In this document: one piece after another, positions 5,926-23,431 of the stretch
Numbering within the stretch: the first letter of the stretch is position 1
Layout of the letters: each line of letters opens with the position of its first letter
Origin: a virus
Virus record (IMG/VR): IMGVR_UViG_3300044678_000071
Location: 1-32,023 of that record
Strand: one strand, 5' to 3'
Length of the DNA stretch: 32,023 bases
Program-made: the position numbers and the translations under genes
The notes under the pieces: model-generated
The model's input: only the letters and a program-made list of their open reading frames with translations
What the model was told of the DNA's origin: nothing
Database searches by the model: none

Positions 5926-6284
5926 TGGCTGAAGAAAAGAAAACAGAAGATAAGCGTTCTAGCCGTACCAAGTGGTTAGATTCGCTACCAGACAACGCCA
6001 TGACAAAGGCTTCCCGTGTGATAAGCCGGGCTGGAGATGCTGTTGGTATTACTCAGGAAGAGCATTACAAGGCTAAGAAGTACCAAGTACCTGAGAAGAC
6101 CGAGAAAAAAGCCAAGGGTGGTTGGATCCAGAAGGCTATTAAGAAGCCTGGCGCACTGCGTGAGCAGCTTGGCATCAAGGGTAAGAAAAAGATCCCCGCT
6201 AAGATGCTGGACCGAGCTACAAAAGCACCGGGTAAGCTAGGGCAGAGAGCGCGTCTGGCTAAGACCTTGAGAGGAATGAAGTGA
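5925..6284 (+). CDS. Small basic phage protein, function unknown
   Basis: The 119-residue protein is Lys/Arg-rich with a C-terminal block (about 75-119) GALREQLGIKGKKKIPAK...GKLGQRARLAKTLRGM. This block is frequent in small phage proteins of environmental genomes, as I recall, and looks like a compact helical nucleic-acid-binding unit. It starts in a TAATG overlap and ends in a GTGA overlap, so it is translationally coupled on both sides. No enzymatic motif. A packaged or assembly role is inference. Confidence 0.6.
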   Translation: MAEEKKTEDKRSSRTKWLDSLPDNAMTKASRVISRAGDAVGITQEEHYKAKKYQVPEKTEKKAKGGWIQKAIKKPGALREQLGIKGKKKIPAKMLDRATKAPGKLGQRARLAKTLRGMK

Positions 6285-7024
6285 CCACTTCAGGCACCAA
6301 TAGTTTCAACCTAGACTTCAACGAGATTATCGAAGAAGCCTTTGAGCGTTGTGGCTTAGAGCTACGCACGGGCTATGAGTTCCGTACAGCGCGTAGATCT
6401 CTGAACCTGCTGACTATTGAGTGGGCTAACCGTGGTATTAACCTCTGGACTATTGAGCAGGGGTCGATTCCGATGGTGCAGGGGCAGATTACCTATGCTC
6501 TACCTGTAGACACTATTGACCTTTTGGATAGCGTAATACGGACTCAGACAGGCGCTGAGCAGACTGACATCAACATCAGCCGTATTAGCGTTTCTACCTA
6601 CGCCACGATACCGAACAAGAACGCGCAAGGCCGACCCATTCAGGTCTGGATTAACCGGCAGTCTGGTGCTACATACCCCATAAACGGCAACCAGCCTAAT
6701 ACGACTAACCCCTCCACTGGGGTGAACCCACCGAATATTAATGTCTGGCCTGCGCCAGACCAGAGTAACTTCTACACCTATGTTTACTGGAGGCTGCGTC
6801 GTATACAGGACGCAGGCAACGGGGTAAACACTCAGGACATTCCGTTCCGTCTGTTGCCTTGCTTGGTAGCTGGGCTGGCTTATTACCTGTCGATGAAGAT
6901 TCCTGAGGCGCTCCCAAGGTTAGAAATGCTCAAGATGTCGTATGAAGAGCAGTGGGCGTTGGCATCGTCTGAAGACCGTGAGAAGGCTTCTCTGCGGTTA
7001 GCGCCGCGTGAGATGTTCTATTAA
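6281..7024 (+). CDS. Head-tail connector-like protein
   Basis: The 247-residue protein begins at GTG in a GTGA overlap, with AGAGGAA upstream. It starts with a helical region (FNEIIEEAFERCGLELRTGYE) and a segment RSLNLLTIEWANRGINLWTI. The core YALPVDTIDLLDSVIR and the C-terminal helical part fit the gp4-P22/Sf6-gp7-like family of ring-forming connector proteins that bind below the portal. A Pro/Asn-rich loop (about 130-155) is inserted. It lies in the region where such a gene belongs, before the adaptor at 7800. The fold is inferred from pattern, not from a search. Confidence 0.65.
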   Translation: MTTSGTNSFNLDFNEIIEEAFERCGLELRTGYEFRTARRSLNLLTIEWANRGINLWTIEQGSIPMVQGQITYALPVDTIDLLDSVIRTQTGAEQTDINISRISVSTYATIPNKNAQGRPIQVWINRQSGATYPINGNQPNTTNPSTGVNPPNINVWPAPDQSNFYTYVYWRLRRIQDAGNGVNTQDIPFRLLPCLVAGLAYYLSMKIPEALPRLEMLKMSYEEQWALASSEDREKASLRLAPREMFY

Positions 7025-7799: not shown

Positions 7800-8516
7800 A
7801 TGAACTACGCAACTCTGTTTGAGACGATTAAGGGATATTGTGAAAACGATTTCCCAAATACGCAGTTTTCAGACCCTGCTGGGTCTACGGCTACGCTTAC
7901 GTCTAAAGAACAGATTGATACGTTCATTCAACAGGCTGAGCAGCGGATTTATAATAGCGTTCAATTTCCATCAATACGTAAGAACGTAGTAGGGCTAACC
8001 ACTACTAATAACAAATATCTTTCTTGCCCTGCAGATTTTTTAGCTGTGTATTCTATGGCTGTGATTGATGGTACTGGTAACTACGAATATCTGCTTAACA
8101 AGGATGTGAACTTTATTAGGGCTGCATTTCCAAACCCAGCTACTACTGGCATACCTAAGTACTATGCTCTGTTTGGCCCAGCTACTACGAATACTAACCC
8201 GCCTGTAATCACTAATGAGTTGACGTTTATTCTTGGCCCTACGCCTAACAACGTTTATAACGTAGAACTCCATTATTACTATTACCCCGAGTCAATTGTT
8301 ACAGCAGGTACTACGTGGCTTGGTGATAACTTTGACTCTTCGTTGCTTTACGGCGCATTGGTTGAAGCCTATACCTTTATGAAGGGCGAAGCCGACGTGA
8401 TCGCTGGGTACAACAAACGTTATGAAGAAGCAATGATTCTGGCTAAACGCCTTGGTGATGGTATGGAGCGTCGTGACGCGTACCGGTCTGGGCAAGTTAG
8501 AATGACGGTGAACTGA
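7800..8516 (+). CDS. Head-tail adaptor protein (SU10/T7 gp11-like)
   Basis: The 238-residue protein has an N-terminal helix (YATLFETIKGYCENDFPN), then TLTSKEQIDTFIQQAEQRIYNSVQFP, a beta domain with LSCPADFLAVYSMAVIDGTGNYEYLLNKDVNFI, and a C-terminal helix bundle (YGALVEAYTFMKGEADVIAGYNKRYEEAM). This matches the adaptor family of short-tailed phages such as SU10, whose members form a 12-fold ring under the portal and hold the tail nozzle. Length is usual for the family. It starts on the base after the previous stop, and the next gene starts in a TGATG overlap. Confidence 0.75.
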   Translation: MNYATLFETIKGYCENDFPNTQFSDPAGSTATLTSKEQIDTFIQQAEQRIYNSVQFPSIRKNVVGLTTTNNKYLSCPADFLAVYSMAVIDGTGNYEYLLNKDVNFIRAAFPNPATTGIPKYYALFGPATTNTNPPVITNELTFILGPTPNNVYNVELHYYYYPESIVTAGTTWLGDNFDSSLLYGALVEAYTFMKGEADVIAGYNKRYEEAMILAKRLGDGMERRDAYRSGQVRMTVN

Positions 8517-8949: not shown

Positions 8950-9516
8950 ATGAAACATGCAGCACAATCTACAGAGCGCGTAGCGGCTACTCAAGAAGCT
9001 GGCGCTAAATATCGTGAAGGTCTTGTTGGCGGCGGCGTGTTTACTGTCACCTGCTACGACAAAGACGGTAACTTGAAGTGGGAAAACAAGGCTAAAAATC
9101 TTGTGGTTAATCAAGGTCTGCAAGATATGAATACTAAGTACTTTAAAGGTGTTACTTACACCGCTGCTTGGTATCTTGGTCTTGTAACTGGTCCTGGTCC
9201 ATCTACGTTTGCCGCTGCCGACACTCTTGCCTCTAAAGCATGGACTGAGTTTACTAACTACTCAGGTAACCGCAAGGCTGTGACTTTTGGTACAGCTACC
9301 ACGGCTGATCCGTCTGTTATTGACAACAACGCTTCTCAAGCTTCGTTCAGTATCACGGGTACGGCTACTGTAGCTGGCGCGTTCTTGGCTAGTGTGGATA
9401 CCGGCACTTCTGGAATTTTATTTTCTGAGGCAGACTTTGAGTCTCCTGGTGATCGTTCAGTAGTTAGTGGTGACACGCTAAACGTTAAGTATGAGTTTAG
9501 CCTTGGTGACGCTTAA
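8950..9516 (+). CDS. Phage virion protein, unknown role
   Basis: The 188-residue protein has a short helical start, then VFTVTCYDKDGNLKWENKAKN and NLVVNQGLQDMNTKYFKG, followed by a beta-rich region with YTAAWYLGLVTGPG and SGILFSEADFESPGDRSV. This set of phrases is frequent in small tail-associated proteins of environmental phages. AAAGGAG lies 6 bases before the ATG. Expression may be high (GCT/GGT/CGT codons). A base-of-fibre role is possible; no domain is certain. Confidence 0.6.
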   Translation: MKHAAQSTERVAATQEAGAKYREGLVGGGVFTVTCYDKDGNLKWENKAKNLVVNQGLQDMNTKYFKGVTYTAAWYLGLVTGPGPSTFAAADTLASKAWTEFTNYSGNRKAVTFGTATTADPSVIDNNASQASFSITGTATVAGAFLASVDTGTSGILFSEADFESPGDRSVVSGDTLNVKYEFSLGDA

Positions 9517-9526
9517 GGAGATCTAG

Positions 9527-9706
9527 ATGGCTACCACATTTAAAAAAGGCGATGTCGTAAAGCTTAAGGCTGTTGTCCCCCAAGGTCCAGTGGTTGCTCT
9601 ACGCATGAGTGAAGACGGTATTGTGTCTTATCTCATAGAATGGGTTGACACTGACGGGGTAAAACAAAGTCGTTGGTTTTCTGAAGACGAACTAACTGCG
9701 GGGTAG
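9527..9706 (+). CDS. DUF2158/YodC-like small protein
   Basis: The 59-residue protein begins FKKGDVVKLKAVVPQGPVVA, continues ...SYLIEWVDTDGVKQSRWF and ends SEDELTAG. This is the pattern of the DUF2158 (YodC) family: a small SH3-like beta barrel with KxGDVVxLKSGGPxM, a central W and F, and an acidic end. The family role is unknown; members are often 55-80 residues. It starts after AAGGAG and stops 3 bases before the GTG of the repeat protein. It may act with that protein, but only by position. Confidence 0.65.
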   Translation: MATTFKKGDVVKLKAVVPQGPVVALRMSEDGIVSYLIEWVDTDGVKQSRWFSEDELTAG

Positions 9707-9709
9707 TAA

Positions 9710-10765
9710 GTGGCTGATGTCAGCGGCTGGGGGTCTGGCGGCTGGGGTGAAGCAGCGTGGGGTTACTCTGTCTACGATAGGGAATCAAAAGATTCTGCCG
9801 AAGGCAGTGATAAGACCAATGCTTTTTTAGCCTCTAGCCGTATAGTTAAAGATGCTGCAGATGGAGCGGATTTAGCTTATGGATTTTTAATTTCTGGTCG
9901 TACAGTTAAAGAAGCTGCCGACGCCGCTGACAAAGTTAGTTCTCTTGCTATTTTTACTACTTCAGTAATTGAAGCCGCAGATGCCTCAGACTTAACATTT
10001 GCTTCTCCTTCTTTTGATGGTTTTATAGTAGAAGCAGTCGAAGGCGCAGACAAAGTTTATGGGACGGCTCAATTTAACGCAACGTTTAAAGATGCAGCCG
10101 AAGGTTTAGACAAGGTTAATGGACAGTTACAGCTTGACGCAGTTATAGAAGAGGTCGTAGATGGTGCTGACGTAGTTAACGCTCTGGCTACATTTAGTTC
10201 TTCTGTTGTGGAAGTCACAGATTGCGCTGATACAGTTAGTGCTTTGGCAGTGTTTAACGGGGTAGTTGCAGAAAGTAGTACTGCTTCTGACACCATTACT
10301 GTACAAGCTACGTTTAATTCCTCTGTTGTCGAAGTTGCTGATGGCGGTGATATTACGACAGCTACAGTCGAATTTGCCTCTGTCATTAAAGAAGCCGCAG
10401 ATGCCGCAGACGTAATTTCTTCATCTTCCGTATACGTCACTTCTGTAATTGAAGCTGCTGACGGCTCAGACACAATATCTTCTCTGGTAGTGTTTAGTGG
10501 ACTTGTATCTGAAGCTTCTATAGGGCAAGATACAGTATACGGACAGGTAGATTTCTCTGTAAGTATTGTTGAGAGTGCTGACGCCGCCGACATTCTAAAT
10601 ACGCAAGTAGTGTTTAATTCTTCAATTATTGAAGCCGCAGAAGGTATGGATACTATGGTTGCCCGATATCTATGGGAAATTATTGACACCTACGAACTTT
10701 CTGATTGGTCAACTATAAACACTTTTGAAACGAACGATTGGCAAACTGTTATTACGCAAAATTAG
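9710..10765 (+). CDS. Virion repeat protein with fifteen 20-residue repeats
   Basis: The 351-residue protein starts at GTG. Residues 1-25 are Trp/Gly-rich (GWGSGGWGEAAWG), a start seen in several phage virion proteins. Residues 26-325 are fifteen units of exactly 20 residues without any gap. The consensus is [VI]-x-[ED]-A-x-[DE]-G-x-D, then variable residues ending in F-x-x-S. Position 3 is acidic and position 9 is Asp in all fifteen. The C-terminal 26 residues have two Trp motifs (DWSTI, DWQTV). The strict period suggests a beta-solenoid or beta-stack rod, perhaps cation-binding. It sits next to the fibre genes, so a fibre shaft or spacer is likely. There is no known family I can name. Confidence 0.65.
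   Translation: MADVSGWGSGGWGEAAWGYSVYDRESKDSAEGSDKTNAFLASSRIVKDAADGADLAYGFLISGRTVKEAADAADKVSSLAIFTTSVIEAADASDLTFASPSFDGFIVEAVEGADKVYGTAQFNATFKDAAEGLDKVNGQLQLDAVIEEVVDGADVVNALATFSSSVVEVTDCADTVSALAVFNGVVAESSTASDTITVQATFNSSVVEVADGGDITTATVEFASVIKEAADAADVISSSSVYVTSVIEAADGSDTISSLVVFSGLVSEASIGQDTVYGQVDFSVSIVESADAADILNTQVVFNSSIIEAAEGMDTMVARYLWEIIDTYELSDWSTINTFETNDWQTVITQN
9785..10684 (+). repeat. Fifteen tandem 60-bp coding repeats
   Basis: Exactly 900 bases code for fifteen 20-residue units in one frame. DNA identity between units is low outside the GAAGCCGCAGATG-type core, so the repeats are old and held in register by protein structure. Units 2, 3, 4, 10 and 11 are closest to the consensus. Units 1, 8 and 12 are most divergent, but all keep the acidic residue at position 3 and Asp at position 9. 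Confidence 0.9.
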
Positions 10766-10774
10766 GAGCCGTAA

Positions 10775-12241
10775 ATGGCAAGCACATACTCAACGCTAAA
10801 AATTGAACTCATAGGAACCGGCGAACAGGCTGGGCTGTGGGGCACCACGACAAATACCAATCTTGGTACCGCACTAGAAGAGGCGATTGTCGGCTCTGCT
10901 GACGTACCTTTTTCTAGCGCGGATGTGACGTTAACACTTACAAATACTAACGCTACTCAAACCGCACGGCATGTTCGATTAAACCTTACGGGCACTTCTG
11001 GTGGCGTACGGAATCTTATTCTTGGATCTGGTTGTCAAATTGATAAACCCTATCTAATTAACAATGGTCTTGCTGACACCGTTACGGTTAAGAACACTAC
11101 GGGCACGGGCATTGCGGTTCCTGCTGGTAAGACGATGTGGGTATACAACAATGGCACGAACGTCGTTGATGCTGTCACGCACCTGTCCTCGTTAACCCTA
11201 GGTACAGCGCTTCCGATTACCTCCGGTGGAACGGGAAGCACGTCTACGACCTTTGTTAACCTCGCTACTAACGTCACGGGTACGCTACCGATTGCCAATG
11301 GGGGTACGGGAACAACATCCACGACCTTCGTTAACTTAGCCACAAATGTCACGGGTACGCTACCAGTCGCAAACGGTGGTACGGGCGGAGCTACTCAAGC
11401 AGCGGGTCGAACAGGTCTAGGGGCGACCACCCTTGGCGCTAATTTGTTTACGATCACTAACCCCAGTGCGGTTACATTTCCACGTTTTAATGCTGACAAT
11501 ACTGTTTCGGCTCTTGACGCAGCATCTTTCCGTACGGCGATTGGTGCAGGATCCGGTACTGGCACGGTTACCTCTGTGGGTGGTACAGGTACGGTCAACG
11601 GCATAACTCTTACGGGTACCGTTACGTCGTCTGGCAACCTTACTCTTGGCGGCGCATTGTCTGGGGTTAGCCTTTCGACCCAGGTGACAGGGACATTACC
11701 GATAGCAAATGGTGGAACGGGTTCAACCGCAACAGCTTATTGCAGCCTTACTACTAACGTTTCTGGCATCCTGCCTGCGGCAAATGGCGGTACCAACAAC
11801 GCCTTCTTCCAGGTCAGCGGTCCGACAACTTCCGTCAAAACTTACACATTCGCTGATGCGAACATGACGATCGTCGGCACTACCGACACGCAGACGCTTA
11901 CTAACAAGCGTTTCACCCCACGTATTGGAACGGTTACCAGTGCCGCTACGATTACCCCCACAGGCGATACGGCGGATCAATATAATGTTACGGCCTTAGC
12001 GGTTGCTGCAACCATTGCGGCTCCCTCTGGCACCCCTACGGACGGTCAGAAGCTCGTGATCCGCATTGAGGATAACGGTACGGGCCGAGCGCTTACCTGG
12101 ACTACTACCTCTGGCGCGTATAGAGCCGTTGGAGTAACACTCCCAACGACAACTGTTGCTACCAAGGTGGTATATATCGGATGTATTTACAACTCCCAAG
12201 ATGTGTTCTGGGACGTAATTGCGGTTGCACAACAGCCATAA
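10775..12241 (+). CDS. Tail fibre-like protein with ANGGTG repeats
   Basis: The 488-residue protein starts STLKIELIGTGEQAGLWGTT, a start I recall from tail or head fibre proteins of environmental podoviruses. The middle carries repeats ending TGTLPIANGGTG (five related copies, two in perfect 25-residue tandem). SFRTAIGAGSGTGTVTSVGG and a beta-rich C-terminal domain with DTQTLTNKRF follow. These GTLP...NGGTG and TLTNK phrases occur widely in phage fibre and hub-fibre trimers. Receptor binding or shaft formation is the expected role. AGGAGCCGTAA precedes the ATG. Confidence 0.75.
   Translation: MASTYSTLKIELIGTGEQAGLWGTTTNTNLGTALEEAIVGSADVPFSSADVTLTLTNTNATQTARHVRLNLTGTSGGVRNLILGSGCQIDKPYLINNGLADTVTVKNTTGTGIAVPAGKTMWVYNNGTNVVDAVTHLSSLTLGTALPITSGGTGSTSTTFVNLATNVTGTLPIANGGTGTTSTTFVNLATNVTGTLPVANGGTGGATQAAGRTGLGATTLGANLFTITNPSAVTFPRFNADNTVSALDAASFRTAIGAGSGTGTVTSVGGTGTVNGITLTGTVTSSGNLTLGGALSGVSLSTQVTGTLPIANGGTGSTATAYCSLTTNVSGILPAANGGTNNAFFQVSGPTTSVKTYTFADANMTIVGTTDTQTLTNKRFTPRIGTVTSAATITPTGDTADQYNVTALAVAATIAAPSGTPTDGQKLVIRIEDNGTGRALTWTTTSGAYRAVGVTLPTTTVATKVVYIGCIYNSQDVFWDVIAVAQQP
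11240..11389 (+). repeat. Two 75-bp tandem repeats in the fibre gene
   Basis: Copies at 11240-11314 and 11315-11389 both encode the 25-residue unit TSTTFVNLATNVTGTLP[IV]ANGGT G. DNA differs mainly at third codon positions. Further single copies of the NGGTG end lie at about 11226 and after 11690. Units of this type form coil segments of fibre shafts. Confidence 0.85.
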
Positions 12242-12520: not shown

Positions 12521-15500
12521 ATGGCAGATAGATATTGGCGTGGTGGCACTGGTACCTGGAATTCATCCAATACTGCCAACTGGTCAGCCACGAGTGGCGG
12601 CGCTGGTGGTGCATCTGTGCCTACGACATCGGATGACGTTTATTTTAACGCGTCTTCCGGATCTGGAACTGTCACTATCAGTGGCACTGTTAATGCCGCA
12701 TCTGTAAATTTCACCGGCGCTACCTTAACCTTAGCGGGTTCTGGTGCCAACATGTTAAATTATGTTGGTAGTTTCACGATGGGCTCGGGAATTACGATCG
12801 GATCTGGATTAAGTATTCTCCGTAGCAGTATGACTACCTTGGCACGGACGTTTACATCAGCGGGTAAAACTTTTCCTTGGGCTATACAGTTTTATGGGAC
12901 CGGTGGGTCAATAACATTTCAGGACGCCTTAACATGTACCGGCGGGATTTCTCAATCTGGTAATCACACGCTGACATGGGGAAACTTTACTCACACTACT
13001 ACTTCTTGGTATCAAGATACTGGAACGTCAAATTTTACTTCGCCCGGTAAGGTAGTTTGCAGCAGATCAACTGCTGGCAGCGCTTTTAGCATGCCAATAA
13101 CCTCCGGCTTTAATAACGCAATCAGCGCTTACAACAGGTTTGAAGTGTTGTCCCCGCCCGCTGGAATTACGGTAACTGTCGACCCTGGTTTTAGAACCGA
13201 AACTACGTCAGCTAAACTTTATTACATCAATTCGGGTACCGGTACAATTCAGACTAATGGTGGTGGTACTGGAACTAACTCGGGGCATGCATGGTTGATT
13301 GATGTGGGGGCTGGGTCATTTAACGTAAATAGCTTGAATGGCATACGTTCTGTAACCGCAAGCGCAAGCTGGACTGGCACCTATACAGGCATCTTATCCG
13401 CTCTTTCCATAGATGCAACCGGTACAACTATAAATCTTGGTACCGCCAGAACAAACACTACTGGAACTTTTTTTGCCAGCGCGGCTAGTGTTGGCACTAA
13501 TCCAATTTATATAGACACTAGCATTACCTTTACTACTGTTCCACCCGGTACTACCGCACCCCATACTTTTACTAACGGAGTCCTTACTCTAAGAAATAAC
13601 TCCGTTTTAACATTGTCATCGTTAAGATTTGCACCTACTCTTACAGGTTCTGGCTTCAATTTCGGCACTGGCTCAGAAAAACTCGTACTAAACCGGGCAA
13701 CTCCATCTGGTGATGTGTTCTTTGTCAACACAGCGGGTTCCTACACAAACGTAAACATAACTAATCGTAAAGCCATTGAAATTTTAGCTCCCAATTCGGG
13801 GGTAACAATAGATATAAAGCTGCCTGAAGGTATTGGCGATCGCAGCAAATTATTTTCATTTAGCGTGGTAGCGGGTGGGACCGGAACAATCCAGTTCAAC
13901 TCAGCTACCGGCACCACTTATGCTTCCGGTATTGGAGTGCAAGATTTTACTCTTCACAACTCCTCTTATACGGTAACGCAGACTGGTATGACTAATTCCC
14001 CGGCAATAAATGGAGATCTCACCATAGGTGGTTCATTAGTCGCTGCCAATTTTTTTACTAATTACATGATTGGTTTTACATCCAACACAAGTCCACAAAC
14101 GCTAAATACAAATGGAGCAACAGTAAATTTTGGAATTGATTTGGCTAATACTGCCGCTGGAGAGTTACGTCTTGCTGGAAACACCTCATTAAACACGACA
14201 ATTTCAGTCAATTCTTTGTCATTTGGTTTATTTTATACTGGTTCTGGTCAGGGTTATTTAAATCTTCAATCATTCCGTTTGACTTGTGGCAGCATAAACG
14301 CTTCAACATCATCAGGCGTGGTAAACATTAATTTTGGTGCAAGTGGAACAATTAGATGTACCAACTCTAGCGCGTTTGCTTCACGACTATTTCTTCTTGA
14401 TACAGCCCACTACGGAACAATTTCCGGAAACAAGGTTATTGAAGTAGAAGCATTTGGAACATTTGCTCAAAACTACATAAGATATTATAACCAAAGCGCC
14501 ACCACTGGTGATTACGCCAAAGCTCTCACCGTTCGGGTAGTTAATACCGGTTCCACGGGAATAGTAGGTGATGATGGTCACGTTGGCAGTACAATTCTTG
14601 AAGATGGGCCATATGCATTTAATGGCGGGTCAAACCAATTTGCTCAAACGGTAAACGTTTATCAAAACTTAGATATTCTTGGCTCATCCATAAATTTTGT
14701 GAATGGTGCGTCATCCTCAACATTTCAATTCGCTGGGGGATCCGGTGTTCCGGCTAGTAACGTTAATACTTATGGTAGCAATTTAAACATTGGTATGACG
14801 GTACAAAGTAGTGGGAAGCAGGTAAATCTTGCTGGCGCTACGACCATCAGGAGTTTTGATCTCCTTGTCGGAGCTTTGTCGTTATCAAGCTTTACACTTA
14901 CGTGCACTAGCTACTTTAATGCAACTAACTCAGGAACGGCTAGAGATCTCAACCTTGGAACCGGATCAATATATTTAACATCAAATGCAACCGGTACTGT
15001 TTTTAATGTTACCAATATAACCAGCTTCACGCTTTCTGGAACATCCAGAAAGATATATATCACCACCCCCGGAACTGGCTTTACAAAAACAAGTAGCGTT
15101 GGCTCGTCTGCAACAATCAATTTTGACTTTGAGCCAGTAGTCGTAAACACCGGCGGCACCATAAACTTCTCAAACGGTGACTTTAGAAATTTTGACATTC
15201 CTGGTGGAACGTACACTATCGGGCTGCCATCGAGCTACACAATATATGGTGACCTAACGGTCAATGGCGCAATCACCGCATACTCTAACGGTGGAACCGC
15301 CCAGAACTTTGCCAAATCTTCTGGCACGCAATTTATAAACACCAATGGAAATACATATGGTGGAACTGGTGCAATCACGTTTAACGTGCTTGCTACAACA
15401 TTGCAATTAAGCGGAAATTGTAATTTTGCGGCTTCCGTTTTTAATCACAATCAGGGAACGTTAGCGCTAAACAACTTTAGGCTGACAGTGCCATCATTTA

Positions 15501-17188
15501 GCTCGACAAGTGGCAACACTAGAACAATAAATTTTGGAACATCTGGAGCTGTTCGTCTTACTGGTTCTGGAACAGTGTGGACTACAAGCAATGTCACCGG
15601 TCTTACAATCTCTGGCACCAATAGGTTTGTTGAGCCCAATTTAAATGGCAACCAAACATTGGATTTTGGCATTTTAGCGGCAGCAGATACTTTAGATGTC
15701 AGCGTTCCAACTACAGCATCAAATAACACGCTTAGCTTTACCGCTGGTCAAAGGGTAAGGAATCTTTCGTTTGCAAACGTGGCTTACACGGTAGCCAACA
15801 TAAATCAAAATATTTATGGCAACTTAACCGTTCTGGGCACGACGCCAGTCTTTACTGCTGGTACCAGTACGTGGACATTTTTATCAACTTCCGGCACGCA
15901 GACCATTACATCCAACGGAAATACGTTCAACTTTCCAATAACATGTAATGTGACTGGTACGCTTGCCTTGGGAGACAATCTTACTATAGGCTCGTCCAGA
16001 ACATTTGATCTCACTACTGGCACGCTAGACCTTGGAACTAGGATATTGTCAACCGGCGCTGTTTCTACTACCAATAGTAATGTAAGGGCAATTAATTTTG
16101 GTGCCGGAAGCGAAATTCGATTAACAGGCACGTCATCCGTTTGGAACTCTAATACCAGCACTAATCTTACAGTTACTGGAACAACAAGAACAATTGCGCC
16201 GCAGCTTCCTAATAATCAACTTATAAGTTTTGGTGCGATATCAGAAGCAAATGCATTTGATGTAAGCGTTCCTGCTACCGCCGGCAATTTCACGCTTACT
16301 ATTAATTCATTTAGCGCGGTCAGAAATATTAATTTTGCAAACGCAACCTACACCGTTTTACTTGATAGCAATACAATATTTGGAAGCTTTACTGTTGCGG
16401 GGACATCTCCGACGTTTACAAGCAGTGCAACCGCAATAACCTTTGGGGCTACATCTGGATCGCACACCATTACGACGAATGGTGAAACGATCGATCTGCC
16501 AATAACAATCAACGCGCCCGGGGCAACTTACTCACTGGGTAGTGCATTGACGCTTGGTAGTACAAGAACATTTACCCTGACGCAGGGTACTTTCAATACC
16601 AGCAACTTTAATGTCACGTCTTTTTCGTTGAGTTCGTCAGGCAGCTCTGCTAGAACGCTTACGCTTGGTAGTTCAATATGGACCATTCTTGGTGATGGGT
16701 CGACGGCTTGGAATATAACAACCTCGACGAACATGACGTTTAACCGAGGAACTTCCAAGATTTCCATGAGTTCCGCATCGAACAAAACGTTCAATGGTGG
16801 CGGCCTGACATATGGAATTCTTGAGCAGGCCGGTGCTGGAACTCTGACTATTACCGGAACCAGCAATCGTTTTGCGGATCTTCAGCGGTCTTTCGCGGGT
16901 GCAAACACTATTACGATGCCGGGTAGTGTGACGACATTTTTTGATAATTTCACGCTGACTGGAGTTTCTGCGGTTGCAAGGACCACGCTTAATTCTTCTG
17001 GCACCAGCACCATATCCAAGTCAAGCGGGACGGTCAGCGTAGACTTTCTGTCTATCTCAAGCTCAAATGCCACTGGTGGCGCTACGTGGTACGCCGGAAA
17101 CAACTCGGTCAACGGTGGTGGCAATACCGGCTGGATATTCACCGCTCCCCCGCAGGCAAGCGGCAACATGCTGATGGTGTTCATGTAA
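12521..17188 (+). CDS. Giant modular beta-rich fibre or adhesin-like protein
   Basis: The 1555-residue protein starts RYWRGGTGTWNSSNTANWS and GGAGGASVPTTSDDVYFNAS, a signature of large phage surface proteins and bacterial surface beta proteins. From about residue 370 to 1490 it has six related modules. The last spacings between equivalent points are about 188-207 residues, the first about 221. Each has an INFGxxxxIRLTGTxxxW phrase, a TxxGTxRxI phrase and a NLTVxGTxPTFT-type strand. The end carries FLSISSSNATGGATWYAGN and NGGGNTGWIF. It is Thr/Ser/Asn/Gly-rich, with no signal peptide, catalytic motif or autoprotease end seen. A long receptor-binding fibre or spike is most likely. GAAGGA precedes the ATG. 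Confidence 0.7.
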   Translation: MADRYWRGGTGTWNSSNTANWSATSGGAGGASVPTTSDDVYFNASSGSGTVTISGTVNAASVNFTGATLTLAGSGANMLNYVGSFTMGSGITIGSGLSILRSSMTTLARTFTSAGKTFPWAIQFYGTGGSITFQDALTCTGGISQSGNHTLTWGNFTHTTTSWYQDTGTSNFTSPGKVVCSRSTAGSAFSMPITSGFNNAISAYNRFEVLSPPAGITVTVDPGFRTETTSAKLYYINSGTGTIQTNGGGTGTNSGHAWLIDVGAGSFNVNSLNGIRSVTASASWTGTYTGILSALSIDATGTTINLGTARTNTTGTFFASAASVGTNPIYIDTSITFTTVPPGTTAPHTFTNGVLTLRNNSVLTLSSLRFAPTLTGSGFNFGTGSEKLVLNRATPSGDVFFVNTAGSYTNVNITNRKAIEILAPNSGVTIDIKLPEGIGDRSKLFSFSVVAGGTGTIQFNSATGTTYASGIGVQDFTLHNSSYTVTQTGMTNSPAINGDLTIGGSLVAANFFTNYMIGFTSNTSPQTLNTNGATVNFGIDLANTAAGELRLAGNTSLNTTISVNSLSFGLFYTGSGQGYLNLQSFRLTCGSINASTSSGVVNINFGASGTIRCTNSSAFASRLFLLDTAHYGTISGNKVIEVEAFGTFAQNYIRYYNQSATTGDYAKALTVRVVNTGSTGIVGDDGHVGSTILEDGPYAFNGGSNQFAQTVNVYQNLDILGSSINFVNGASSSTFQFAGGSGVPASNVNTYGSNLNIGMTVQSSGKQVNLAGATTIRSFDLLVGALSLSSFTLTCTSYFNATNSGTARDLNLGTGSIYLTSNATGTVFNVTNITSFTLSGTSRKIYITTPGTGFTKTSSVGSSATINFDFEPVVVNTGGTINFSNGDFRNFDIPGGTYTIGLPSSYTIYGDLTVNGAITAYSNGGTAQNFAKSSGTQFINTNGNTYGGTGAITFNVLATTLQLSGNCNFAASVFNHNQGTLALNNFRLTVPSFSSTSGNTRTINFGTSGAVRLTGSGTVWTTSNVTGLTISGTNRFVEPNLNGNQTLDFGILAAADTLDVSVPTTASNNTLSFTAGQRVRNLSFANVAYTVANINQNIYGNLTVLGTTPVFTAGTSTWTFLSTSGTQTITSNGNTFNFPITCNVTGTLALGDNLTIGSSRTFDLTTGTLDLGTRILSTGAVSTTNSNVRAINFGAGSEIRLTGTSSVWNSNTSTNLTVTGTTRTIAPQLPNNQLISFGAISEANAFDVSVPATAGNFTLTINSFSAVRNINFANATYTVLLDSNTIFGSFTVAGTSPTFTSSATAITFGATSGSHTITTNGETIDLPITINAPGATYSLGSALTLGSTRTFTLTQGTFNTSNFNVTSFSLSSSGSSARTLTLGSSIWTILGDGSTAWNITTSTNMTFNRGTSKISMSSASNKTFNGGGLTYGILEQAGAGTLTITGTSNRFADLQRSFAGANTITMPGSVTTFFDNFTLTGVSAVARTTLNSSGTSTISKSSGTVSVDFLSISSSNATGGATWYAGNNSVNGGGNTGWIFTAPPQASGNMLMVFM
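13650..16990 (+). repeat. Six related ~190-220-residue modules in the giant fibre gene
   Basis: Equivalent points (the x-NFG or x-LG phrase) lie near 13659, 14323, 14945, 15524, 16088 and 16655. Spacings are about 664, 622, 579, 564 and 567 bases. The last three modules are most alike and the first two are the most changed. DNA is diverged, so this is an old duplication series with module-by-module drift. Confidence 0.7.
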
Positions 17189-21703: not shown

Positions 21704-23431
21704 ATGGCTCTTGATTACACAGACCCAATTCTTCGCGGCGAATCTCCAACGTCAGATGGAAATTTGTACGATGTAATTAATTATTATCAAAATTTAGCCA
21801 GTTTACAGTCTGTAGATCCGACTATGCAGGCTATAGAGTCCATGCAAGCTTCAGTAAGCCCCGATGCTTACTCTACGCCTAATTTTGTACCTTCTGGTTT
21901 ATATGGCGTACTTCAGTCTCAAGCGCCGTCTTTTGCACCAAGAGGAAGAGTAGATCAAGGGTTTTTACCTATATTAGAGACTGGCAAAAGGTATACAGAA
22001 CCTGCTAGAGAAATATTCTTACCTCCCACTACGCCTTCTATTCCTTCTGAAGCCCCTTCTCGTGTGTTCCAAGCATTTGCTCCAGCAGATCCTAACCGTG
22101 CAACAACTGTAAGATTTCCCACGGGCGCTGATGCTACCACTGCTAATAAGCCGGTTACACCTACTACGCCTGTTACGCCTCCTTCTGGTGGTAATGTCAG
22201 TGGTGGGAATGATGGTGGCGGCGGTGGCGGTGACGCTGGTGGCGGTGGCGGCGGTCCGGGTCCATCAGCTGGTGAAGTGGGTAGTGGAATCGCTAATGCT
22301 GTTAGCGCTGCTAATGCAGCATACAGTGGTCCTTTAGGAGTTGTTGCTACGATTGCTGATCCATTGGGAGCTTTGGCTGCTAAGGCGGCACACGCTGCAT
22401 TAAGCACGACTCCAAGTACTACACCTGCACAAGTTACAAGCATCAGTGAACAAGGGGTACCTTCGGGTTCTGGTTCAGCCTTTGGTAACCCAGCTGGCCC
22501 AGGTAATGAAGGAGTGCTTGGTGCTGTAACCGGCATGCAAGATTCCCAAGGTGCAGCAGTAGCCGCCGCACAAGCAGCAGCCGAAGCCGCAGCAGCACAA
22601 GCAGCAGCACAAGCACAAGCCGACGCCGCAGCTGCCGCACAAGCCGACGCCGCAGCAGCACAAGCAGCAGCCGAAGCCGCAGCAGCCGCAAGTAACGCTG
22701 GTTTTGGATTTGGATTTGGCGGTGGTAACGCTGGCTCAGGTTTTGGTAACGCTGCTGGCTTAGGTGGTGAAGGCGCTATGGGCGCAGTTTCTGGCCTAGG
22801 TGATTCTGGATTTGGCGGTGGTGGCGGTGGTGCTTCTGGTGTGGGTGTCGGTGCCGGTTCTGTAGGAGAAGGCGGAGAAAGCGCTGGTGTTGGTGGTATG
22901 GGCGACGGTGGCGGTGGTGGCGGCGGAAAAATTATATGTACAAAGCTATATAAGCTTGGGTTACTTAACGAAGATATATATTTAGCTGATCAAGCTTTTG
23001 GAGCTAAGTTAGTTAAAACCAACCCAGATATTTATAACGGATACCGTGCTTGGGCTGAGATTGTAGTAGATTGGATGGAAGGCAACGGGCCTAATATGAT
23101 GCCTTGGTTACCAGAAAAGCGTAGGCGTGAAATTTTACAGAGCTGGTCTACATCATGGGCTAAAGAAATTGCTACGCCTTGGGCCGAAGAAATGGCTTAT
23201 AAAATGGGCGTTAAAGAGTCCGGTAACACTACCGGCAAATTAATTACAGCCGCAGGTATACCAATTTGTAAAGCAGTTGGTGTTTGGCAAAGAGTATTTG
23301 GCCCTAGTAAAAAACCTGCCGGGTTTGGTAAAGGGGCGATGCTAATACCTGTGTTTATATTATTTAAGCTAACCGTTAAATTAGGTCGATTAATTGAAGG
23401 TAAGAAAACACCTTCTTTGCAAGGAACTTAA
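21704..23431 (+). CDS. Gly/Ala-rich virion protein with conserved C-terminal membrane domain
   Basis: The 575-residue protein has a disordered N-terminus (1-165), a Gly-rich part (about 166-195) and a helical Ala-rich part (about 197-235). A second linker is followed by an almost pure Ala/Gln helix (about 282-332) and another Gly-rich tract. Residues 409-575 form a compact domain beginning KIICTKLYKLGLL, with ADQAFGAKLVKTNPDIYNGY, EIVVDWMEGNG, ATPWAEEMAYKMG and a hydrophobic segment KGAMLIPVFILFKLTVKLG. I have seen related C-terminal domains in marine phages, of unknown function. Context with ejection-type genes suggests an internal or injected membrane-active protein; this is inference. Confidence 0.6.
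   Translation: MALDYTDPILRGESPTSDGNLYDVINYYQNLASLQSVDPTMQAIESMQASVSPDAYSTPNFVPSGLYGVLQSQAPSFAPRGRVDQGFLPILETGKRYTEPAREIFLPPTTPSIPSEAPSRVFQAFAPADPNRATTVRFPTGADATTANKPVTPTTPVTPPSGGNVSGGNDGGGGGGDAGGGGGGPGPSAGEVGSGIANAVSAANAAYSGPLGVVATIADPLGALAAKAAHAALSTTPSTTPAQVTSISEQGVPSGSGSAFGNPAGPGNEGVLGAVTGMQDSQGAAVAAAQAAAEAAAAQAAAQAQADAAAAAQADAAAAQAAAEAAAAASNAGFGFGFGGGNAGSGFGNAAGLGGEGAMGAVSGLGDSGFGGGGGGASGVGVGAGSVGEGGESAGVGGMGDGGGGGGGKIICTKLYKLGLLNEDIYLADQAFGAKLVKTNPDIYNGYRAWAEIVVDWMEGNGPNMMPWLPEKRRREILQSWSTSWAKEIATPWAEEMAYKMGVKESGNTTGKLITAAGIPICKAVGVWQRVFGPSKKPAGFGKGAMLIPVFILFKLTVKLGRLIEGKKTPSLQGT
22568..22688 (+). repeat. GCA/CAA-rich repeat coding for Ala/Gln helix
   Basis: A tract of GCA, GCC and CAA codons encodes about 50 residues of AAAQAAAEA type. 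A 29-base segment (starting GCACAAGCAGCAGCCGAAGC) occurs at 22568 and again at 22658, an offset of 90 bases. Such repeats are prone to copy-number change. Confidence 0.8.

Follow-up and report, generated by a model that had tools for sequence, protein, structure and literature searches.

In the adenovirus fibre, a triple beta-spiral from a eukaryotic virus, the length of the shaft follows the number of sequence repeats, and each repeat is roughly 15 residues long and has a conserved Gly/Pro turn. The phage T4 protein gp5 forms a triple-stranded beta-helix whose trimer buries glutamates together with hydrated Mg2+ (PMC4576200). Repeats of the type VTGVxATGxVG are found in proteins of two cultured phages, gp68 of the Pelagibacter phage HTVC023P and WJZ48131.1 of phage DSL-LC04, and the genes encoding them adjoin fibre-chaperone, lectin or tail genes. 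Here, we describe a protein built from a different repeat, encoded on a 32,023-nucleotide stretch of viral DNA (IMG/VR record IMGVR_UViG_3300044678_000071, positions 1 to 32,023), hereafter the window. At a probability of roughly 0.6, we regard it as a tail-fibre subunit of the kind carried by short-tailed phages, in which the repeats would form an intertwined, probably trimeric, beta shaft with a length set by the number of units. The gene, its parts and its neighbors are as follows:

8950 to 9516, plus strand: upstream neighbor, a structural protein resembling Gp80 ("fiber I" of podophage GP4; PF23140, E 1e-4, below the cut-off)
9710 to 10765, plus strand: putative repeat-fibre gene, an open frame of 351 amino acids with a GTG start; homologues occupy an equivalent slot on many viral contigs
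9710 to 9784, plus strand: Trp/Gly N-terminal block, GWGSGGWGEAAWGY, a probable attachment module
9785 to 10684, plus strand: fifteen gapless 20-residue units (residues 26 to 325), recognized by identity at lag 20, by the acidic position 3 and by the Asp of position 9
10661 to 10687, plus strand: conserved junction ARYLWEIID, for which the family consensus is RLLWE[LI]I, in the latter half of unit 15
10673 to 10762, plus strand: C-terminal 11-residue Trp repeats (W322, W333 and W344)
10775 to 12241, plus strand: downstream tail-fibre-like protein (MASTYSTLKIELIGTG...; phrog_11393, tail fiber, E 2e-7; phrog_3030, E 4e-20)
12521 to 17188, plus strand: giant fibre-like protein (MADRYWRGGTGTWN...), a relative of which, in locus L187, carries the 20-residue array in its C-terminal part

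Within the array, position 3 is D or E and position 9 is D in 15 of 15 units, and self-identity at a lag of 20 reaches 0.35, whereas 5000 shuffles that preserved composition gave no value above 0.17 at any lag. The first-pass annotation, which had reported fifteen gapless units with these two acidic positions, is therefore confirmed, while the exactness it ascribed to the repeats holds for their length and not for their sequence, as the units are about 30-36% identical pairwise. Tandem Repeats Finder detected no 60-base DNA repeat across the array, and this, together with the low identity between units, indicates that the array is old. Unit 15 is a cap, with the RxLWE(I/L)I block that is found throughout the family making up its second half, and R319, L321 and E323 of the junction are invariant across 30 aligned members. 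The C-terminus beyond RxLWE, previously described simply as Trp-rich, does contain the tryptophans but is itself a second exact repeat that had been overlooked, with a Trp spacing of exactly 11 in the window protein and, family-wide, in 453 of 458 spacings. The Trp repeats bear a weak likeness to tape-measure proteins (E 0.04-0.5), which we treated as chance or convergence. At the other end of the protein, two types of short start block occur in the family: the Trp/Gly block of the window protein is common to L002, L066, L067, L080, L087 and other loci, and a Phe/Tyr block with the motif FGxxxFAxxPFA takes its place in most other members.

Relatives of the repeat gene are present on hundreds of IMG/VR contigs. 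A direct search recovered L002, whose 304-residue protein is encoded in the same slot as the window gene, and L003, where the likeness to the window protein is confined to the slot and the first 20 residues. The L003 gene (6001-6864) has the slot and the start of the window gene, but its body is a VTGVEATGAVGSV repeat; the repeat body appears to be exchangeable between these two repeat types. A further 74 IMG/VR loci were gathered through the upstream Gp80-like neighbor, and most of those that extend far enough encode a 20-residue-repeat protein in the same slot. One pattern scan for the RxLWE block, combined with a profile search, yielded 435 confirmed stretches in IMG/VR, and a second profile added members beyond these. 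Searches of 50,697 cultured phage records with four different members did not find the repeat body, in a tblastn with the low-complexity filter on, which could have masked a weak relative. In two scans covering contigs from bacterial and archaeal genomes, no relative was confirmed. Neither the window protein nor the scanned relatives matched a Pfam, PHROG or NCBIfam family above the cut-off, in keeping with the earlier remark that no named family fits, and nothing in the PDB was found with the protein sequence or its profile. We found no description of the 20-residue repeat in the literature. Two candidate relationships were rejected: phrog_13587 (E 0.002) was matched by only one of 30 members, and pentapeptide repeats, with A(D/N)LXX every five residues and 20 residues per coil, have a five-residue consensus absent from the unit, the profile match to 2j8k being weak (E 0.81).

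Across a family survey of 128 distinct proteins, some of them fragments, 1643 of 1770 junctions show a unit spacing of 20; the spacing is 21 in 89 and 40, corresponding to one unrecognized unit, in 20. The consensus unit is [VI]-S-E-[ST]-[AV]-T-[AG]-S-D-x-V-x-A-x-[AV]-x-F-x-x-x. Unit length is thus as constant among relatives as had been proposed, whereas the Asp that had been called fixed is less so in the family than the acid at position 3; family-wide, position 9 is D in 71-80% of units and otherwise mostly S or E, and position 3 is acidic in 98%. The number of units, which the first-pass annotation had suggested comparing among related phages, ranges from 6 to about 67 and differs in whole units. 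Relatives with the start VFGIS[SP]FAAAPFASLAG and similar C-terminal ends have approximately 14, 23, 32, 35, 39 and 66 units. Of the pairs that differ in array length, those with 90-97% identical Gp80-like neighbors show a difference equal to a multiple of 20 residues, give or take one, in 145 of 163 cases, and those with 80-90% identical neighbors do so in 765 of 843; chance would give about 15%, with the caveat that pairs are non-independent and some fragments are included. An assembly error is an unlikely source of the long arrays, because at the DNA level L148 and related long arrays contain no 240-base stretch more than 80% identical to another at unit spacing. In the 1501-residue array of L148, a motif resembling the Trp/Gly start, YGWGLGYGWGLGAWGSSG, occurs in the middle, at units 21-22, as if two fibre genes had fused.

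In a set of 1384 units, the odd positions, apart from 3 and 9, all exceed every even position in hydrophobicity, a contrast that is weaker in the window protein alone. Direct-coupling scores are maximal at a separation of two residues (1.26, vs 0.74 at one and 0.42 at three). The coupling peak and the alternation are, at the level of sequence, a beta pattern, and because 20 is even, the hydrophobic/polar register runs continuously through the array, with positions 3 and 9 falling on the hydrophobic face. The couplings gave no clear antiparallel hairpin. A monomeric beta-solenoid in which every 20-residue coil makes one turn and the cation sites form a ladder, the model put forward in the first-pass annotation, would account for the strict unit length and the alternation, and it agrees with the two strands per unit in a full-length AlphaFold2 monomer model (30 aligned sequences) and with some coupling between positions i and i+20. 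That model, however, has a pLDDT of 44, and one made with 85 aligned sequences reached only 48 and contained zero strands, both of low confidence, whereas AlphaFold2 usually copes well with monomeric solenoids. Foldseek on the low-confidence model returned no match below E 1, whether to a solenoid or to any other fold, and among the leading positions, coupling at i/i+20 exceeds that at i/i+40 only moderately, as expected from shared unit ancestry. A self-standing solenoid with a cation site per turn is consequently not supported, and we regard it as unlikely. We take the failed monomer models to suggest a fold that may need partner chains.

The same models might alternatively reflect a flexible, mostly disordered and highly acidic linker or decoration that holds a distal domain off the particle. 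The lack of a confident AlphaFold2 structure and the strandless 85-sequence model would be in line with this, as would a composition rich in the small residues Ala, Ser and Thr and an average unit that, family-wide, has about 2.9 acidic residues but 0.27 basic ones. A disordered chain would not, however, be expected to keep a strict 20-residue length, an alternating hydrophobic pattern and a conserved aromatic residue at position 17, and we consider it slightly more doubtful than the solenoid.

The genes around the array bear on where the protein might act. The Gp80-like gene adjoins the repeat gene in most of the fetched loci that extend far enough, and its product matches the PDB entries 26la/44nx, "Structural protein" (E 6e-11). 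Downstream, the 10775-12241 product matches the annotated tail fiber protein of phage P19250A. The repeat gene therefore stands among tail and fibre genes, in a slot conserved in many contigs. Its place in a general structural region could also suit a head or internal protein outside the fibre, such as an ejected protein or an extended chain over the capsid. This is improbable given the fibre-type neighbors and the fusions with fibre-like modules described below; moreover, the repeat protein diverges faster than its neighbor (33-40% identity to L002, vs 82% for the Gp80-like protein), as is usual for host-facing parts.

Several other features of the window can be seen near these genes. A 59-residue protein (9527-9706), weakly DUF2158-like, lies immediately upstream of the repeat gene, is kept there in L040, L048, L052 and L066, and could be a fibre helper. 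The downstream fibre protein contains a 75-bp (25-residue) direct repeat at 11224-11385, in 2.2 copies with a 78% match. The SU10 adaptor family has matches in two genes, at 6281-7024 and 7800-8516 (E 4e-6 and 2e-21), which suggests a duplicated adaptor or a tail-completion pair. The open reading frame at 21704-23431 has low-complexity tandem repeats, Gly-rich and Ala/Gln-rich.

The array is joined to a variety of other domains in related loci. In L187 and L203, the array, RLLWE and Trp repeats follow the N-terminal region of a homologue of the giant protein at 12521-17188; the window's giant gene matches L187 with a BLASTP E of 3e-32, and the window repeat protein matches the L187 C-terminal part with an E of 8e-20. 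A glycine-rich domain precedes the array in L082 and L086, a large insert with STDG.xW-like motifs separates it from the Trp repeats in L060, and in L038 the array and the downstream fibre protein share one continuous reading frame. Such fusion and exchange with fibre domains fits a fibre shaft, and together with the gene position, it lends support to the fibre-type virion role proposed in the first-pass annotation.

The analysis establishes the repeats and their fixed length, the family around them, changes of length by whole units, a place among structural genes and fusions to other fibre-like modules. That the repeat protein is present in the virion and trimerizes is an inference. In a tail fibre of this kind, the short aromatic/Gly start would most likely anchor the protein to the tail, and identical chains, probably three, would intertwine along the repeats into a long beta-structured shaft. 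The RxLWE block and the 11-residue Trp repeats would then form the far end, although which end is distal is itself an inferred point. The number of units may set the length of the shaft, which would evolve by gain and loss of whole units; it could conceivably also affect host range, as suggested in the first-pass annotation. The inward-facing acids at positions 3 and 9 might bind cations or hold the chains in register. More tentatively, the family might represent a large unnamed class of fibre shafts in uncultured environmental phages, with an exact 20-residue beta unit, two inward acids holding three chains through cations, and a rod length that evolves rapidly and is adjustable in steps, over a range of 6 to about 67 units. 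Because close relatives differ by whole numbers of a unit of nearly fixed length, they form a natural series in which fibre length could be related to attachment. The family is common in environmental contigs, yet its repeat body did not turn up in the 50,697 records of cultured phages, so that a widely used fibre architecture may lack a structure and a name.

Compared with the systems introduced above, the HTVC023P and DSL-LC04 proteins resemble the window protein in their aromatic or patterned start, in a body of beta-type repeats and in the 11-residue Trp repeats at the C-terminus, but their bodies differ from its own, with the motif VTGVxATGxVGxV lacking the acid at position 3 and the Asp at position 9, and only the Trp repeats align by profile with the window family. 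The relative of the GP4 fiber I protein Gp80 (PF23140) is the upstream neighbor and not the repeat protein itself. Similar to the window protein, the C-terminal beta-helix of T4 gp5 (VxGxxxxx) is a phage rod made from short repeats; it differs in its 8-residue repeat with Gly and has no sequence similarity, and its trimer is known, while that of the window protein is postulated. We regard it as an analogy and not as a sign of membership. The adenovirus fibre gave no sequence match in the PDB search, although the dependence of length on repeat number is alike. A fibre shaft built from repeats is thus of a known kind, while the 20-residue repeat, its pairing with an 11-residue Trp repeat and the wide range of whole-unit lengths are new.
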